From Ilumatobacteraceae bacterium (GTDB lineage: Bacteria > Actinomycetota > Acidimicrobiia > Acidimicrobiales > Ilumatobacteraceae): a DNA stretch of 55,786 nt. Each line of letters starts with the position of its first letter. The first letter of the stretch is position 1. The stretch is from the NCBI GenBank assembly GCA_009691255.1, contig SHUT01000009.1:1-55786 (forward strand), read 5' to 3'. The position numbers were made by a program, and so were the translations under genes. Shown here one piece after another: positions 35,137-43,436 of the stretch. Under the pieces are notes generated by a model. That model had not been told where the DNA came from. It was given only the letters and a program-made list of their open reading frames with translations, and did no database searches.

Positions 35137-35162
35137 TAATGTCGAGCGCTACGCTGTAATCT
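35134..35162 (+). promoter_or_regulatory. Promoter of the pyrimidine operon
   Basis: TTGTAA (35134-35139) and TAATCT (35157-35162) are separated by 17 bp, a good sigma-70-type match. Transcription would begin near 35169, placing the PyrR-binding hairpin at the very 5' end of the message. Confidence 0.7.
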
Positions 35163-35170
35163 GTCAATGA

Positions 35171-35201
35171 CCGTGAAGTGAGTCCTGTGAGGCTCACACG
35201 G
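35171..35201 (+). promoter_or_regulatory. PyrR-binding RNA hairpin in the pyr leader
   Basis: A hairpin forms from CCGT (35171-35174) with ACGG (35198-35201) and GTGAG (35178-35182) with CTCAC (35193-35197), with a purine bulge GAA (35175-35177) on the 5' side. The loop and flank read TCCTGTGAGGCT (35183-35194), matching the known PyrR binding-loop consensus UCCNGNGAGGCU. The 3' foot of the stem touches the SD AAGGA at 35202-35206, so PyrR bound with UMP would be expected to block ribosome loading on the leader ORF. Confidence 0.85.
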
Positions 35202-35213
35202 AAGGAAAACTAT

Positions 35214-35297
35214 ATGACGGCAGTCAAATTTAATTCGCTTCGCCCCGCGGTAGGGGCGTTTTTGCTGTCTGGGGTCAGATACGGGTGGGTGAACTGA
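35214..35297 (+). CDS. 27-codon leader ORF of the pyr operon
   Basis: An ATG at 35214 follows the SD AAGGA (35202-35206) at ideal spacing and opens a frame of 27 codons (MTAVKFNSLRPAVGAFLLSG...). Codons 10-15 run through both arms of the intrinsic terminator. The TGA stop (35295-35297) overlaps the pyrR ATG as TGATG. The strong SD, the absence of stops and the junction argue that it is translated. By analogy with the enterobacterial pyrBI leader peptide, its translation could prevent termination. The peptide itself shows no recognisable domain. Confidence 0.65.
   Translation: MTAVKFNSLRPAVGAFLLSGVRYGWVN
35241..35263 (+). terminator. Intrinsic terminator (attenuator) in the pyr leader
   Basis: CGCCCC (35241-35246) pairs perfectly with GGGGCG (35253-35258) around the loop GCGGTA, followed by five T (35259-35263). 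It lies inside the leader ORF, downstream of the PyrR hairpin and upstream of pyrR. No clear antiterminator pairing with the PyrR stem was found, unlike the Bacillus arrangement. Confidence 0.8.
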
Positions 35298-35854
35298 TGT
35301 CGTCAGCCGGATCACTAGGCGGTGCGGTCGTGCTGACCAGTCAAGATATTTCTCGCGCCATTACGCGTATTGCCCATGAGATTTTAGAGCGCAACCGCGG
35401 CGTCGACGATGTCGTTTTGGTGGGGATGCAACGAGGAGGCGTCTGGATTGCTGATGCAATCAAGGCAGCGCTAGAGCGTGTTGAGCCTGGTGTGTCGGTG
35501 GGGGCAGGATCAATAGATGTCTCGATGTATCGCGACGATATTGGAATACGGCCCATCGTTCCGGCAGCGGCAACCGATATCACGGTTGATTTGTCGGGGC
35601 GCACAGTTGTGCTTGTGGATGATGTGCTCTACACGGGTCGCACCGTCAGAGCAGCCCTCGAGGCCTTAAACGACTACGGCCGTCCGCGCGCCGTACAACT
35701 GGCTGTTCTTGTCGATCGTGGACACCGAGAGCTACCTATTCGACCTGACTACGTTGGCAAAAATATTCCGACACATTTCGATGATGAGGTCGCAGTTGAT
35801 GAGTCGGGCGTTGTGATTACGCTCGCTAAACATACAAAAGAAAATGCCTCATGA
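35297..35854 (+). CDS. pyrR: PyrR regulator / uracil phosphoribosyltransferase
   Basis: RNA-binding regulator that senses UMP/UTP versus PRPP. From ATG 35297 it is 185 residues with the PRPP loop VLVDDVLYTGRTVRAAL (about 105-121), DVSMYRDD, and the C-terminal ELPIRPDYVGKNIPT. The ATG is chosen because it forms a TGATG junction with the leader ORF; the GTG at 35285 in the same frame lacks a good SD. Its target hairpin lies about 100 nt upstream. It overlaps pyrB by 4 nt. Confidence 0.95.
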   Translation: MSSAGSLGGAVVLTSQDISRAITRIAHEILERNRGVDDVVLVGMQRGGVWIADAIKAALERVEPGVSVGAGSIDVSMYRDDIGIRPIVPAAATDITVDLSGRTVVLVDDVLYTGRTVRAALEALNDYGRPRAVQLAVLVDRGHRELPIRPDYVGKNIPTHFDDEVAVDESGVVITLAKHTKENAS

Positions 35855-36801
35855 AGCATCTTCTTTCTGCACAAGATCTGACGCAAAATGACATCATCGC
35901 GTTGCTTGACATGGCAGATCATATGGCTGAGATCAATACGCGACCTGTTCCAAAGGTGCCAGCCCTGAGGGGTAAAACAGTTGTTAGCGTTTTTTTTGAA
36001 GACAGCACGCGCACTCGACTCAGTTTTGAAACAGCCGCTAAGCGTTTGTCGGCAGACACAATGACATTTAGTGCCAGCACATCTAGTCTCAATAAGGGTG
36101 AGAGCTTGCGAGACACCATTGAAACATTGTCGGCCATGCGCGTTGACGCATTTGTGGTGCGGCACAAGTCAAGTGGCGTGCCACTTCAGATTACGGAGTG
36201 GACAGACGCCAGTGTCATAAATGCCGGAGATGGATGGCATCAACACCCAACACAAGCATTGACCGACGCCTTCACGATCACTCGGTCGTTTGGAACGCCA
36301 CACACGCTTGAGGGCAGAACAATCGCGATTGTTGGAGACGTCCTGCATAGCCGAGTAGCGCGCAGCAACATTGCGGTCCTAACCAAGTTGGGGGCCAAGG
36401 TGGTGCTGGTCGGACCTAGCACGCTGATTCCCATACAAGCACAACAGTGGCCTGTAGAAATTCTCCACTCACTAGATGAAGTCGTGGCAGAAGTAGACGT
36501 TGTGTACATGTTGCGGATGCAACGAGAACGGATGGAGACAGCGTTCGTTCCGTCACTCGGGGAATACACAGCACGTTTTGGTCTGACGCCTGATCGTGTC
36601 TCACGCATGTTGGCACATGCGTTAGTGATGCACCCTGGCCCAATGAATCGAGGAATAGACATGGTCGTAGATCCAGCCCAAGTTTCCGGAAGCCGCATTC
36701 TGCAACAAGTCACTAACGGAATCCCAGTTCGAATGGCTGTGCTATTCACACTGCTTGGCAGCGGTGGCTCAACTGCGCTAGCAACGGGAGCAGATCTATG
36801 A
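35851..36801 (+). CDS. pyrB: Aspartate carbamoyltransferase catalytic chain
   Basis: Condenses carbamoyl phosphate and aspartate, the first committed step of pyrimidine synthesis. 316 residues with FFEDSTRTRLSFETAAKRL (carbamoyl-phosphate binding), GDGWHQHPTQALTDAFTI and VYMLRMQRERM. No regulatory PyrI chain is present, so control is through the PyrR leader. ATGA overlaps on both sides. Confidence 0.96.
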   Translation: MKHLLSAQDLTQNDIIALLDMADHMAEINTRPVPKVPALRGKTVVSVFFEDSTRTRLSFETAAKRLSADTMTFSASTSSLNKGESLRDTIETLSAMRVDAFVVRHKSSGVPLQITEWTDASVINAGDGWHQHPTQALTDAFTITRSFGTPHTLEGRTIAIVGDVLHSRVARSNIAVLTKLGAKVVLVGPSTLIPIQAQQWPVEILHSLDEVVAEVDVVYMLRMQRERMETAFVPSLGEYTARFGLTPDRVSRMLAHALVMHPGPMNRGIDMVVDPAQVSGSRILQQVTNGIPVRMAVLFTLLGSGGSTALATGADL

Positions 36802-38087
36802 CCAAATCAATTCCAGAGCTCGTGTTTCAAAATGCATCAGTAGTTCATCCCACGGGCATTGTTGTCGCCGATGTCGCAATATCTAAAGGAATAATCGTGG
36901 GTGTCGGAACGGGGTTGACAGGAGCAAGACTGATTGATGCGACCGGCTTGCACCTGTCATCTGGCTTTGTTGATCTGCATACGCACTTGCGTGAACCCGG
37001 CAAGGAAGAAGCAGAAACAATCCAAACCGGAAGCAGGGCAGCAGCCCTTGGCGGCTACACCGCAGTAATCGCCATGCCAAACACAGACCCATCTCAAGAC
37101 TGTGTGGCAGTTGTGAGATTTGTTCAAGAAAAAGCAAAAGAGGTGGGACTGTGTGAAGTGGTCCCATCGGCTTGCATCACGGTAGGGCGACGAGGTGAGC
37201 AGTTGGTGCCATTTGCAGCCTTGCACGAAGCAGGGGTAAGAATTTTCACGGACGACGGTAACGGAGTTCAAGACCCGCTCATCATGCGCAGGGCACTTGA
37301 GTATTCTCGGGATCTTGACATTGTGTTGGCTCAGCACTGTGAAGTCGCTCGACTTACACAAGGCGCAGTGATGCACGAAGGCGAGTGCTGTTCATCACTT
37401 GGAGTGCCAGGATGGCCCGCAATTGCTGAAGAACTGATGTTGCATCGGGATATTGAGCTCGTGCGACTAACCGGAGCGCCGATGCACTTTTTGCATTTGT
37501 CGACGGCAGGCAGCGTAGAACTCGTACGACGAGCCAAGGCCGACGGATTGCCAGTCACCGCTGAAGTCACGCCGCACCACTTGGCTTTGACTGACGAATT
37601 ACTTGGCGGGTTTGACACGGTCTTCAAAGTAAATCCACCACTCAGAACTTGGGCAGATATTCAAGCACTTAAAGACGGTGTTGCCGACGGAACAATCGAT
37701 GCAATCGCCACAGATCATGCGCCGCATGCCGCACCAGCAAAAGATGTTCCTATTGATGTCGCTCCACCAGGGATGCTGGGTCTCGAAACGGCACTCGGAG
37801 TCGCGAATACCGCTCTTGATGTTTCAGAAGTGCGACTAGTCGAATTGTTGTCATGGAATCCTGCTCGGATTGCCGGAATCCAAGATCGCCATGGTCGTCC
37901 AATCGCTGTTGGCGAAGTTGCCAATATCGCCGTGTGGTCTAGTACCAAAACATGGGATGTGTCACGCGACGCTTTGGCAAGTAAGAGCAAGAATACGCCC
38001 TATCACGGCATGACGATTAGAGGAAAAGTGAAATACACAGTTTTTAATGGCGAACTTGTTGTCAACGACGAAAGAGCAGTTCGATGA
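36798..38087 (+). CDS. pyrC: Dihydroorotase
   Basis: Zinc amidohydrolase of 429 residues that closes carbamoyl aspartate to dihydroorotate. The metal site begins with DLHTHLREPGKEEAETI (HxH), followed by MPNTDPSQD, IVLAQHCE, FLHLSTAGSVELVRRAK and IATDHAPHA. It is of the longer type I (actinobacterial/Bacillus) class. ATGA overlaps with pyrB and carA. Confidence 0.96.
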   Translation: MTKSIPELVFQNASVVHPTGIVVADVAISKGIIVGVGTGLTGARLIDATGLHLSSGFVDLHTHLREPGKEEAETIQTGSRAAALGGYTAVIAMPNTDPSQDCVAVVRFVQEKAKEVGLCEVVPSACITVGRRGEQLVPFAALHEAGVRIFTDDGNGVQDPLIMRRALEYSRDLDIVLAQHCEVARLTQGAVMHEGECCSSLGVPGWPAIAEELMLHRDIELVRLTGAPMHFLHLSTAGSVELVRRAKADGLPVTAEVTPHHLALTDELLGGFDTVFKVNPPLRTWADIQALKDGVADGTIDAIATDHAPHAAPAKDVPIDVAPPGMLGLETALGVANTALDVSEVRLVELLSWNPARIAGIQDRHGRPIAVGEVANIAVWSSTKTWDVSRDALASKSKNTPYHGMTIRGKVKYTVFNGELVVNDERAVR

Positions 38088-39181
38088 CTACGTCTCTAAA
38101 GAAACCCATTGCTGGAGCACTTGTCTTAGAAGATGGCTCCGTCTTTGAAGGGGAGTCACTCGGGCATCAACCCAAGAGCGGCATTGCCTCAGGAGAGGTC
38201 GTATTTAATACGGTGATGACCGGCTATCAAGAAGTAATCACAGATCCTTCGTATGCGGGTCAAATTATCACCTTCACTACTGCACATGTAGGCAACTACG
38301 GAGTCAACGCATTTGATAACGAGTCGTCACGACCCTACGCACGAGGGGTAATCATGCGCGACATGGCTCGTCGTCGAAGCAACTGGCGTAGTGAAAATGA
38401 TCTGGATGCGATGTTGCGAGCACACAAACTGCCAGCAATTGGCGGAATTGATACTCGACGACTCACGCGACTTTTGCGTGATAGCGGTTCGTTGCAAGGG
38501 GCATTTGGAACGGCATCAGAGTCTGAGTTGTTGGCTGCGGCGGCAACAGAAAAAGGAACAGGTGGCACTGATTTAGTGTCAACGGTGACAACAGACAAAC
38601 CCTACGAATATGGCTCCGGGAAGTTTCGCGTTGTCGCTTTTGATTTTGGAATCAAAACCACAATCCTGCGTTGTTTGGCTGAGTTTGCAACAGTCACTGT
38701 GGTGCCTGCGTCCACGACTGCGGCCCAAATCCAAGCAATGTCAGTTGACGGTGTCTTTTTATCAAATGGTCCTGGTGACCCCGAAATGGTGCTTGGTGCC
38801 CCAGACAATATTCGCCAAATCGCAGAAAGCGGTATAGCAATATTTGGAATCTGCCTTGGGCATCAGTTGCTTTCTCTTGCATACGGAGGCAAAACTTTTA
38901 AACTTCCGTTTGGACATCACGGCGGAAACCATCCTGTTCGACGCATCGCTACTGGAACAGTAGAGATAACGAGCCAGAATCACAATTATTGCGTTGATCC
39001 CGACTCTTTATCAGGTGTTGCCGATATCACGCACATCAATCTTAATGACCAAACCAATGAGGGAATGCGAATTCGAGACACGCGCGCGTTCAGCGTGCAG
39101 TATCACCCCGAAGCAGGGCCAGGTCCACATGACAGTCGTTACTTGTTTGGGGAATTTATAGCAATGATGGAAGGTAAGTAA
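38084..39181 (+). CDS. carA: Carbamoyl-phosphate synthase small subunit
   Basis: Glutaminase subunit of 365 residues. The N-terminal CPSase domain has [13 protein letters not shown] and [24 protein letters not shown]. The class I amidotransferase domain carries the nucleophile Cys in [19 protein letters not shown], and the His/Glu pair in YHPEAGPGP. Unlike mycobacteria, no extra membrane-protein gene intervenes between pyrC and carA. Confidence 0.96.
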
Positions 39182-42100
39182 TGCCCAAGCGCCAAGACAT
39201 TCACAGTATTTTGGTCATTGGCTCTGGCCCAATCGTGATTGGTCAAGCCTGCGAGTTTGACTACTCCGGAACGCAAGCATGTCGTGTGTTGCGCGACGAG
39301 GGCTATCGCGTCATTCTTGCAAACTCAAACCCTGCAACGATAATGACCGACCCAGATTTTGCTGACCGCACGTACATCGAGCCTTTGACGCCAGAAATCA
39401 TGGAACTGATTATTGCTCGAGAAAAACCTGACGCAGTGCTTCCCACTTTGGGTGGCCAAACGGGCCTCAACCTAGCGATGGAGTTGTTTGCGCGAGGAGT
39501 TGTCGGAGTTCCAGGAACCCCCGAACTCATTGGCGCCAACGCCGAGGCGATTGCTACTGCCGAAGATCGAGATCGTTTCAAAAAAGCGATGATCGAGATC
39601 GGTCTGAATGTTCCAAATAGTGGCGTGGCACATGACATGGATGAATCTATGGTCGTGGTGGCCCAAATCGGATTGCCAGTAATCATTCGTCCTGCATATA
39701 TTCTGGGAGGAAAGGGAACTGGCATTGCATCAACGATGGAAGAGTTTGTTCACATCGCGCGCAAGGGATTAGATGCCAGTCCGATTCGTGAAATTTTGAT
39801 AGAGACATCTATTGCTGGCTGGAAAGAGTACGAGCTCGAAGTCATGCGCGATCGGGCAGATAACTGCGTTGTCATCTGTAGTATCGAGAACTTCGACCCA
39901 ATGGGTGTGCATACCGGGGATTCGATCACGGTCGCTCCGGCGCAAACTCTGTCAGATGTGGAATACCAACGAATGCGTGATGCCGCATTTGCCTGTATTA
40001 GGCGAGTCGGCGTCGAAACAGGCGGATCCAATGTGCAGTTTGCAGTGAATCCGGCAAATGGTGACCAGGTTGTCATCGAGATGAACCCACGAGTGTCGCG
40101 TTCATCGGCGCTCGCTTCAAAAGCAACAGGTTTTCCGATTGCCAAGATTGCAGCCAAACTTGCGGTTGGGTACACCCTTGATGAAATACCAAACGACATC
40201 ACGCGGATGACGCCAGCAAGTTTTGAGCCATCAATTGACTACGTTGTTACCAAGATTCCGCGTTGGGCATTTGAGAAATTCCCAGGTACATCCGAAATCC
40301 TTGGGACGCAAATGCAAAGCGTCGGAGAAGCTATGTCAATCGGCAGAACATTTCCGGAGAGTTTGCAAAAAGCACTCCGATCACTCGAACAAGGACGCTT
40401 TGGCTTGAACTGCGATCCCGCCGAAAAGCAATATGACTCGTTTTCTGATTCAGAACTTCTGATCAAGTGCGGCATCGCCACACCAGAGCGAATCTTCTAT
40501 GTTGGGGAGGCCTTGCAAAGAGGCTTGGGAGTAGACGTTGTACACGGCGCAACACAGATTGATCCGTGGTTCTTGGATGAGATACAAATGATTATTGATG
40601 AACGAGCAAGTCTGCAGGGACTGTCGCTACCAGACATTGAGCCAACTCATTGGCGCCGACTTAAGCGTCTGGGATTCTCAGATGTTCAGATCGGATACGC
40701 AGTTGTAGCCAGTGAGCTCGAAGTGCGCAGTGCGCGAGAAGCAGCTGGAGTTATGCCTACATACAAAACAGTCGACACATGTGCTGCCGAGTTTGATGCA
40801 ACGACGCCGTATCACTACTCCACCTATGAAGATGAAACAGAAGTACGGCATTCATCTAAGCCACGAGTCATTATTTTAGGATCTGGACCCAACCGTATTG
40901 GGCAAGGAATTGAGTTTGACTATTGCTGCGTTCATGCCAGTTTTGCGTTGCGTGAAGCTGGGTTTGAAACAGTGATGGTGAACTGCAACCCTGAGACAGT
41001 GTCAACCGACTACGACACATCTGATCGTTTGTACTTTGAGCCACTCACACAAGAAGACGTTTTAAATGTTATCGCTGCAGAGACCGCTGCTTCAGGTGGA
41101 GTCGCGCCCAAAGTAATAGTCAGTCTTGGCGGGCAAACGCCACTCAAATTATCTGGATTGATTCCACCAGAACTTGTCGCCGGCACATCTCCACGTTCGA
41201 TTGACTTAGCAGAAGATCGGGAGAAATGGAACACGCTTTGCAACTCATTGCAGATTCCTCAGCCTCCAGGCGGAACCGCAGCAACTGTTGAAGATGCTCA
41301 AAAAATCACGAACATGGTTGGCTATCCAGTGCTGGTTCGGCCTAGTTATGTGTTGGGTGGCCGCGGGATGCAAATAGTGCATGATGATGAACATCTCAAA
41401 CTGGCAATGAAAGAACTCGCAGGTTTTGGAACTCTTGGCAAAGAGGGTGGCTTGTCGGTCGAGCGACCCGTGTTGATTGACAGGTTTCTTGAAGAAGCGA
41501 CAGAAGTAGACGTCGATGCTATTCGCGATGCTTCAGGTGAAGTTCTTATCGGTGGAGTAATGGAGCATGTCGAAGAAGCCGGTGTTCATTCCGGAGACAG
41601 CGCGTGCACGATTCCACCACAAACATTGCCGTCGTGGGTGATTGAGGTGATTGAGGCTTACACGAAATCAATTGCTGACGCGCTTGAAGTCGTTGGTCTC
41701 GTCAATGTGCAATATGCAGTTGTCGGACACACCGTGTATGTGATTGAAGCCAACCCCCGTGCGTCGCGCACTGTGCCGTTTGTTGCCAAGGCAACAGGTG
41801 TTCCGTTGGCCAAGGTTGCAAGTCGGGTCATGCTGGGGGCCACTCTGCAAGAGCTGCGTATTGAGGGTCTCTTAACACTTCCAGTTACAGGTGGTCATGT
41901 GTCCGTCAAAGAAGCAGTTCTGCCGTTTAATCGATTTCCCGATGTTGATACCGCGCTTGGGCCAGAGATGCGCTCGACAGGCGAAGTCATGGGCATCGAT
42001 CGAACTTTTGGTCGCGCTTTCATTAAGGCAGAGACTGCAGCGGGCACGGTATTGCCCACTTCCGGAACGGTATTTTTGTCACTCGCTGATGCCGATAAGC

Positions 42101-42471
42101 CTGCTGGTCTAGTGGTTGCAAAACGGCTCCGCGATCTGGGTCTTGGAATTGCCGCCACCACTGGAACCGCACAATATCTAGAAAGATTTGGGCAACGGGT
42201 CGACAGAGTGATTGGGAAATTGTCAGAATCACACATGGACATCGATAATGCAGTCGATCTTATTGCTCAAGGAGAAATCAGTTTTGTCGTGAACACGCCA
42301 CAGGGCAGAGGGTCTCGTTCAGATGGCGAAGCAATTCGTAAAGCCGCGAACGCTCATCGCGTGTCGTCTGTAACGACAGTCAAAGCAGCTCTTGCAGCGA
42401 TGAACGGCTTGGCAGAACAACGCGACCATGATGTTGAAGTGAGATCTTTGCAGGAGTATCACGGCCGATGA
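39181..42471 (+). CDS. carB: Carbamoyl-phosphate synthase large subunit
   Basis: 1096-residue synthetase with two homologous ATP-grasp halves (first from [19 protein letters not shown], second from [18 protein letters not shown]) and a C-terminal allosteric MGS domain (from about residue 940). ATP-grasp loops [14 protein letters not shown] and [13 protein letters not shown] are intact. The ATG overlaps the carA stop by one base (TAATG). The 4-nt overlap with pyrD follows. Confidence 0.97.
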
Positions 42472-43436
42472 GGGACAAGCCTGTCTTGCGTGACAAAAAA
42501 GAGTCGCTGTGGCGTTCTCTTGGTGATGTCACAACAGCGGGCGTAACTTTTAAGAATCCAATTCTGACGGCAAGTGGTACCGCTGGTCACGGCGCTGAAC
42601 TCGCTCCATATTTTGCATTGTCGTCACTTGGTGCTGTTGTAGTGAAATCTCTGTATCCGACTCCGTGGCCAGGAAATCCGGCACCGCGAGTGCACAACAC
42701 GCCAAGTGGAATGATCAATGCAGTTGGTTTGCAGGGACCAGGCATTGATGCATGGATCCAACACGACCTACCAGCGTTGCGAGCCGTAGATGCCACTGTG
42801 GTTGCCAGCATTTGGGGTCGCACAGTCGATGATTACGCCAAGGCCGCCGATCAACTAGTTAGTTCTCTATCGGCGCTTGCCGCTATTGAAGTGAATCTGT
42901 CGTGCCCAAACATTGAAGGTCGTTCTGCAATTTTTGCCCATGACGCCGAACTGAGCGCTCAAGTCATGCGAGTTGTGGTGGAGCGACTCGGCCCACACGG
43001 TGTTGCTATTTGGGCCAAGTTGAGCCCAAACACAGACCGCATTTTGCATGTTGTTGAATCAGTTGAAAAAGCCGGAGCAACTGCCGTGACCCTGATTAAT
43101 ACTTTGCTGGGAATGCAATTAGATATCTCAACTCGACGGGCAACGTTGGGAAATGGTGGGGGAGGATTATCCGGAAGGGCAATTCATCCAGTTGCGGTGC
43201 GGACAATATTTGATGTTCGACACGCTTTTGCTGGTCTACCCATTATCGGAGTGGGTGGTGTCTCCAATGGCTCTGATGTGATTGAAATGATGATGGCGGG
43301 GGCGTCACTCGTGCAGATCGGAACGGCAACATTTGCCGATCCACGAGCACCGCAAAAAATCCTGCACGAGGCCTCGCGATTAATGGGCACGCTTGGCGCC
43401 ACGAAATGGGGAGACGTTTTAAATGCAGCCCATTAG
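42468..43436 (+). CDS. pyrD: Class 1 dihydroorotate dehydrogenase (probably 1B type)
   Basis: FMN enzyme of 322 residues oxidising dihydroorotate to orotate. The catalytic base is Cys in EVNLSCPNI, the class 1 hallmark (class 2 has Ser). [50 protein letters not shown] and [27 protein letters not shown]-type blocks are present. Sequence style is 1B, which normally needs the FAD/2Fe-2S partner PyrK; no pyrK is in this operon. pyrF and pyrE are also absent from the window. Confidence 0.93.

Follow-up and report, generated by a model that had tools for sequence, protein, structure and literature searches.

A pyrR leader in Ilumatobacteraceae with a predicted PyrR hairpin and an intrinsic terminator inside a leader reading frame: a probable ribosome-dependent attenuator

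Results and Discussion

The pyr operon and its leader

The window analyzed here, a 55,786-nucleotide stretch of an Ilumatobacteraceae bacterium (assembly GCA_009691255.1, contig SHUT01000009.1), encodes on its forward strand a pyrimidine operon in the order pyrR-pyrB-pyrC-carA-(carB)-pyrD. The pyrR gene (35297..35854) matched NF003549 (207.5 bits, cutoff 138) as well as PDB PyrR chains, and could instead start at a GTG in frame at 35285. It is followed by pyrB (35851..36801; NF002032, 394.7 bits, cutoff 263), which overlaps pyrR by ATGA, pyrC (36798..38087; TIGR00857, 384.9 bits, cutoff 279.05, and below the cutoffs of the listed dihydroorotase equivalog models), carA (38084..39181; TIGR01368, 444 bits, cutoff 307.35) and pyrD (42468..43436; NF005574, 324.3 bits, cutoff 269). 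Each of these five genes reached the cutoff of at least one NCBIfam model. The 1096-aa ORF that follows carA (39181..42471) is named probable carB by its size and position.

Upstream of pyrR, the initial annotation had described a hairpin with the PyrR loop consensus, a strong Shine-Dalgarno sequence (SD) touching its 3' foot, a 27-codon ORF running through an intrinsic terminator and a TGATG junction with pyrR. The observation is real, and every one of these sequence elements is present, all on the forward strand. The predicted PyrR-binding hairpin (35171..35201) reads CCGT-GAA-GTGAG-TCCTGTGAGG-CTCAC-ACGG, with the hairpin pattern matching at 35171; its assignment draws on that pattern, on pairing in relatives and on the Rfam PyrR model RF00515, which aligned to 35167-35266 with 38.4 bits (E 0.00099), short of the gathering score of 54. 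A scan of the window at the Rfam gathering threshold gave no match. The leader SD, AAGGA (35202..35206), starts at the next base and is thus flush with the hairpin's 3' foot. Downstream lies the leader ORF (35214..35297), which encodes MTAVKFNSLRPAVGAFLLSGVRYGWVN in 27 codons from an ATG at 35214 to a TGA at 35295-35297, the last base of which is shared with the pyrR ATG at 35297. Within this ORF is the intrinsic terminator (35241..35263), a stem-loop at 35241-35258 of six G-C pairs and a loop of six (-12.6 kcal/mol) followed by a U tract, TTTTT, at 35259-35263. With 6 bp and 5 U it is a short terminator.

A putative -10 element, TAATCT (35157..35162), was taken from the column profile of the 28 genus loci described below, which gives a TATAGT-like consensus ending 8 nt upstream of the hairpin; a sigma-70 scan of the window leader region found no full promoter. 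Given the position of this consensus, transcription probably starts close to the hairpin's 5' foot.

Taken by itself, the window sequence is less telling. A terminator scan of 601 bases found one site where shuffles gave 0.5 on average, so the window terminator alone is not beyond chance, and the whole leader folded no more stably than shuffled sequence (z -1.1). In the MFE fold of the window, the leader start region might sequester the pyrR start, with no clear effect of this kind across the 28 genus leaders: the pyrR start region had a mean unpaired probability of 0.43 in the full leader and 0.47 once the part upstream of the terminator end was removed (27 loci). What clearly lifts the window terminator above chance, judging from comparative sequence, is its conservation in the genus.

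Conservation within the genus

PyrR was matched in 29 of 32 genomes of the window's genus. The counts given here are for 28 uncut loci; L009 was set aside as it is cut by the contig end and the hairpin caller scored a false site there (its own sequence does contain the terminator). The hairpin is present in all 28 loci with 8 or 9 of 9 pairs formed, and the gap between it and the SD is 0 in 25 loci and -1 in three. All 28 also have a leader frame of 25-27 codons that ends on an in-frame pyrR start: stop and start share 4 nt in 20 loci and 1 nt in 8. A terminator by the strict rule was found in 27 of these 28 loci, and in each of the 27 the leader ORF crosses it. The distance from the leader ATG to the terminator stem varies (20, 24, 27 or 28 nt; median 27 nt). 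The conservation of hairpin, leader frame and terminator that the initial annotation had proposed to look for in relatives was found.

The one exception to the terminator, L029 (genome G015), keeps the hairpin, the leader and the ATGA overlap, and the hairpin that then follows has a poor T tract. This is a possible step toward purely translational control.

The hairpin pattern occurs once per genome in 29 of the 32 genus genomes. Twenty-eight of these matches are directly upstream of the PyrR match, and the 29th is in G023, a genome without a PyrR match. Genome G005 of this genus, which is 97% complete, gave no PyrR match and no match to the hairpin pattern, a possible joint loss of the regulator and its site.

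Across the genus, family, order and class, 208 hairpins were located by their loop core, 158 of them distinct. These 158 are 93.9% paired compared with 80% in column shuffles, and 179 of their cells show double changes where shuffles reached at most 65, in a shuffle that ignores kinship. As hairpin starts came from an earlier pairing-based step, location by loop core is not fully independent of pairing.

Across the genus leaders, the pyrR frame is open in 22 of 28 loci and the third frame in 13 of 28. No run of codons for a regulating amino acid was seen by eye in the genus leader peptides. The SD of pyrR itself, described as only weak in the initial annotation, is indeed so in the window, though this is no rule in the genus, where 12 of 28 loci have no match and 8 of 28 have a match of 5-6 nt. 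Coupling of pyrR to the leader may therefore be partial, and an exclusive coupling, as first envisaged, is doubtful with pyrR's own SD often not weak.

The terminator in the family, the order and beyond

Outside the genus, PyrR was matched in 184 of 200 family genomes, 111 of 118 from the order, 89 of 100 from the class and 115 of 119 in the phylum sample. Upstream regions from the same phylum amounted to 289 loci: 29 from the genus, 99 from the rest of the family, 86 from the rest of the order, 32 labelled class (one of which is of the order) and 43 from the phylum. L030, a 3' fragment, was left out. A named scan with a Thermus PyrR added 80 loci, in 41 of which the caller, with a geometry fitted to hairpins of the window's relatives, found the hairpin. 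The strict terminator rule requires 5 T and the relaxed version 4 T.

Elsewhere in the family, the hairpin was called in 95 of 99 loci and a strict-rule terminator in 10 of 99. These terminators are confined to three of the 23 other genera (g12, g22 and g24), leaving 20 with none; with 4 T required, some loci of g4 (4/9) and g23 (1/13) also pass. Genera g12, g22 and g24 carry the terminator within the first part of the pyrR gene, and all ten terminator loci have a start between the hairpin and the terminator from which the pyrR frame reads across the latter. In g3, two loci (L053 and L054) have a separate 31-codon leader, a TGATG junction and an imperfect hairpin followed by T's.

The fused arrangement is widespread in the order. 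Of its 86 loci, two lack the hairpin and three a called start; among the remaining 81, 54 have a strict-rule terminator, and in 54/54 the pyrR frame crosses it from a start between the hairpin and the terminator. At least one locus with a terminator was found in 40 of the 54 other order families that were read here and bear the hairpin. The embedded terminator lies within the first ~20 codons of pyrR, which in the order commonly starts M/V/L-AERERR..TPP.GGVFVAR, where TPP..GGVFV is encoded by DNA resembling ACGCCCCC-NNNN-GGGGGCGTTTTTGTT. Here the SD is not flush with the hairpin: it starts -1 to 8 nt past it in 79 of 81 loci, mostly 2-7 nt. The start caller was wrong in the terminator-bearing order loci L131, L133, L134, L152 and L179 and also in L085 and L128, which are covered by the pyrR-frame test.

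A separate leader of at least 12 codons with a stop-start overlap of -8 to +2 occurs in 28 of 29 loci of the window's genus (the 29th is cut). The same combination was found in 2/99 loci elsewhere in the family, 1/86 in the order, 5/32 in the class, 15/43 in the phylum and, in the named scan, 5/18 non-Bacillota and 1/62 Bacillota loci.

In six loci (L085, L114, L115, L116, L117 and L128), there is a second, out-of-frame ORF of 8-9 codons nearer the SD, which ends just before the terminator or its remnant (partly by eye). This ORF might influence the choice of reading frame. Leaders of 15-27 codons, again separate from pyrR, were also seen in distant members of the phylum, at loci L324-L327, L329, L333, L335, L337, L341, L342, L367, L369, L371 and L379; in these 14 the leader stop overlaps an in-frame pyrR start, and several have terminators.

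The initial annotation had held that relatives with a broken frame and a kept terminator would speak against its reading. None were found in the genus, the family or the order, where the frame is open in 27/27, 10/10 and 54/54 loci, respectively. Among the distant loci of the named scan, a called ORF spans the terminator in 17 of 22; of the five where none does, L221 is spanned from a GTG. With permissive ORF calling, however, even Bacillota loci often have a frame through the terminator (6 separate and 6 in the pyrR frame, of 13). Given these frames, and a third frame often open in the genus, an open frame alone is weak evidence. The case is therefore built on four other features: the exact overlap of leader stop and pyrR start, an SD that abuts the hairpin, the lack of an antiterminator, and constraint on synonymous codons.

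This class of leader is probably under-annotated, since RF00515 at E 0.1 reported two (L219 and L277) of ten test loci, the others being L003, L006, L011, L032, L132, L170, L173 and L223.

A probable autoregulatory attenuator

We consider it likely that this leader is a two-step autoregulatory attenuator: PyrR controls translation, and translation in turn controls transcription. UMP is an established ligand of the PyrR family. PyrR, with UMP, would bind the 5'-terminal hairpin of the transcript and, because the leader SD is flush with that hairpin, would keep ribosomes off the leader. The untranslated leader would then fold the terminator, and RNA polymerase would stop before pyrR-pyrB-pyrC-carA-carB-pyrD. 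At low UMP, with the hairpin free, a ribosome would start on the leader, translate a few codons and melt the terminator stem, allowing read-through; it would end on the pyrR start, where it could reinitiate. In the fused relatives, the same ribosome would simply run on into pyrR. Direct support comes from the anatomy, its conservation, the absence of a detectable antiterminator and, in relatives, the RNA-level constraint on the terminator. Other parts of the model are inferred: that PyrR binds and needs UMP to do so, where transcription starts, that read-through depends on the ribosome, and that pyrR is coupled to the leader.

The terminator as RNA inside coding sequence

A simpler possibility is that PyrR represses translation only and that the terminator hairpin is a chance or leftover feature that does not regulate read-through. 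The family lends this some weight: 20 of its 23 other genera have no strict-rule terminator, yet the hairpin lies by the SD in 95 of 99 loci, and L029 likewise lacks a terminator by the rule. Translational control alone may suffice in those genera. As an account of the window's leader, however, it is unlikely given how terminators have been kept against synonymous drift in the order. When order loci were recoded synonymously, with the same peptides and background codon use, a terminator was expected in 3.9 of 74 loci and is present in 49 (nominal P ~1e-51, a value that ignores kinship). The 74 are drawn from the 86 order loci; a further 7 with a called start that is not in the pyrR frame were left out.

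The codons point the same way. At the terminator U tract, Val is GTT in 45 of 61 cases versus 10 of 455 in the background (downstream codons of 26 order loci), and Phe is TTT in 25/61 versus 4/75. Order loci without the terminator show ordinary codon use at this position, Val being GTC or GTG in 12 of 13. Terminator-like sites were found in 9 of 926 downstream windows. The embedded terminator thus appears, from these sequence comparisons, to be under constraint as RNA inside the coding sequence of relatives.

Among terminator-less order loci, 14 of 25 keep a GVF-like motif and the N-terminal AERERR..GVF.R is largely kept; those keeping the peptide include L137, L145, L163, L171, L180 and L182. 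As it is kept without the terminator, the N-terminal extension may also have a role at the protein level.

Polymerase pausing as a sensor

In E. coli pyrBI, the terminator is within the leader frame and leader translation through the terminator region permits read-through. The window's leader is alike in having its terminator inside a translated leader frame. It differs in that the sensor of pyrBI is UTP-dependent pausing of RNA polymerase, not an RNA-binding protein that blocks the SD. Were the window's leader to work as pyrBI does, a polymerase pausing at A+U-rich sequence would sense UTP while the ribosome catches up, and PyrR would be secondary. The initial annotation had suggested that an A+T-rich tract before the terminator might help pausing. 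A nearly exact copy of this tract is shared by the two closest relatives of the window species. At least 9 A/T of the 13 nt before the stem were counted in 10 of 27 genus leaders, a measure of composition only and without a background control, and three of those ten (L005, L010 and L028) have TTTTTT there. The other 17 leaders fall below 9 of 13, whereas the PyrR hairpin is present in 28 of 28 uncut loci. A pause tract may contribute in some leaders, and UTP sensing as the principal mechanism seems improbable.

An antiterminator was not detected

PyrR of Bacillus is an antiterminator switch. The window shares with the PyrR attenuation of B. subtilis (RF00515) a homologous PyrR, the loop sequence and an intrinsic terminator before pyr genes. 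It would be of the Bacillus type if PyrR switched an antiterminator formed by the hairpin region and the 5' arm of the terminator, with the leader ORF irrelevant. The Rfam PyrR model, including its middle helix and terminator, does align end to end, and by eye GTGAAG of the hairpin could pair with CTTCGC near the terminator. The energy of pairing between the upstream region and the terminator 5' arm was therefore compared with dinucleotide shuffles. The best pairing in the window was no better than in shuffles (z -0.4 for the whole upstream region and -0.61 for the hairpin region), and the same was true of L011 (z 0.69 and 0.31).

Among relatives, z fell below -2 in 0/27 genus, 0/10 other family and 0/55 order loci, the last including one terminator locus without a called start in addition to the 54 counted elsewhere. 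Of the Bacillota loci, used as a positive control since antiterminators are well established there, 6 of 17 were below -2 (4 of 17 with the hairpin region alone), and one of nine other scan loci was. Mean z was 0.08 for the genus, 0.22 for the ten family loci outside it, 0.95 for order loci and -1.82 for Bacillota. The test thus sees antiterminators in part of its positive control and none here. A conserved antiterminator pairing, which the initial annotation had named as evidence against its reading, was not detected, and Bacillus-type pairing was found in neither the window's genus nor its order. In place of an antiterminator, translation would do the switching here, and we regard a Bacillus-type switch as highly improbable.

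Finally, a chance open frame over the terminator of an upstream unit, to which the single terminator-like site against 0.5 expected in 601 bases and the third frame open in 13 of 28 loci might point, has next to no likelihood and is refuted by conservation: the stop overlaps the pyrR start by 1 or 4 nt in 28/28 loci, and the terminator is embedded in pyrR in 40 of 54 families.

Relation to known systems

The initial annotation knew of no described system with all of these features. That claim is not supported, for Van de Casteele et al. are said to have proposed in 1997 an attenuator at pyrR-pyrB of Thermus ZO5 with a PyrR site and no antiterminator, in which a translating ribosome would reportedly prevent the terminator from forming. 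In the Thermus and Meiothermus loci found here, the hairpin is followed by an SD and a leader ORF that runs through the terminator to a stop at or inside the pyrR start; in the Thermus locus L221, an ATG is followed by an immediate stop and a GTG opens the frame through the terminator. The same anatomy is present in loci of Thermus/Meiothermus, Thermaceae, Truepera and Chloroflexota (Roseiflexaceae and Dehalococcoidia), with a strict-rule terminator in 8 of 10, the other two (L277 and L278) having only an imperfect one by eye. The features reportedly defining the Thermus type (SD at the hairpin, ORF through the terminator and no antiterminator) are likewise found in the window. The mode is therefore known as a proposal, and its occurrence here is not a first. 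Of the mechanism as initially put forward, then, the part that rests on the kept frame and the missing antiterminator is supported, and the novelty is not.

There are differences from the Thermus ZO5 type. The stop-start overlap is 11-25 nt in the Thermus loci L219-L221 and exactly 1 or 4 nt in the window's genus, and the pyrR gene itself contains the terminator in most of the other order families read here.

PyrR of Mycobacterium smegmatis represses translation, as Fields and Switzer reportedly found in 2007. There too the PyrR hairpin adjoins the SD. The window's leader differs by the intrinsic terminator in its translated leader, shared by 27 of the 28 uncut genus loci, whereas the terminator-less, mycobacterial-like form is common in other genera of the window's family.

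Two further systems share parts of the design. In M. tuberculosis ppe2, a B12 riboswitch precedes a uORF with an AUGA overlap with the main gene, and expression depends on uORF translation, mainly through termination-reinitiation; in the parts of that report covered, no extensive premature termination is described for this leader (PMC11260477). The likeness lies in an upstream RNA switch together with a uORF overlapping the main gene, and the difference in the ligand, which for ppe2 is B12 bound by RNA, according to the same parts of the report (PMC11260477). The B. subtilis rplJL leader, in the sections of its report covered here, has an autoregulatory RNA-binding protein complex and an intrinsic terminator, and translation of its leader peptide raises expression; unlike the window's leader, it uses an antiterminator, and Rho-dependent termination is the presumed target of its leader peptide (PMC4538822).

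In the portion of the literature covered, no description was found of this leader type in Acidimicrobiia or of a terminator embedded in pyrR. What appears to be new is the spread of this leader in the phylum, the preservation of a terminator within the pyrR gene and, in the window's genus, the form with an overlap of 1 or 4 nt.

Evolution of the leader

The separate leader of the window's genus may have been acquired from a fused form. We lean slightly toward a scenario in which, across the order, the first ~20 codons of pyrR double as a terminator that is crossed by the ribosome and gated by PyrR, and the leader of the window's genus is a derived split-off. Under this scenario, the N-terminal piece in the genus would have become a separate, out-of-frame leader ORF with a stop overlapping a new pyrR start. 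Measured against the pyrR frame, the phase of the T tract is the same in 22 of 27 genus loci and in 50 of the 51 order loci scored, and in 25 of 27 genus loci no stop interrupts the pyrR frame across the terminator. Both observations fit, without proving, a genus leader that would be the frame-shifted N-terminus of an ancestral fused pyrR. In the PyrR tree, the 28 genus rows form one group (support 96/62), placed among family loci with either the fused form or no terminator.

Implications

If the proposed mechanism is true, PyrR in these bacteria would be a translational repressor amplified by ribosome-dependent termination, and no alternative RNA fold would be needed. An intrinsic terminator would likewise be preserved inside coding sequence over many families, where screens of untranslated regions would miss it. 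As a single family includes loci with no terminator, with an embedded terminator and with a separate leader, the evolution between these modes of control would be directly testable.
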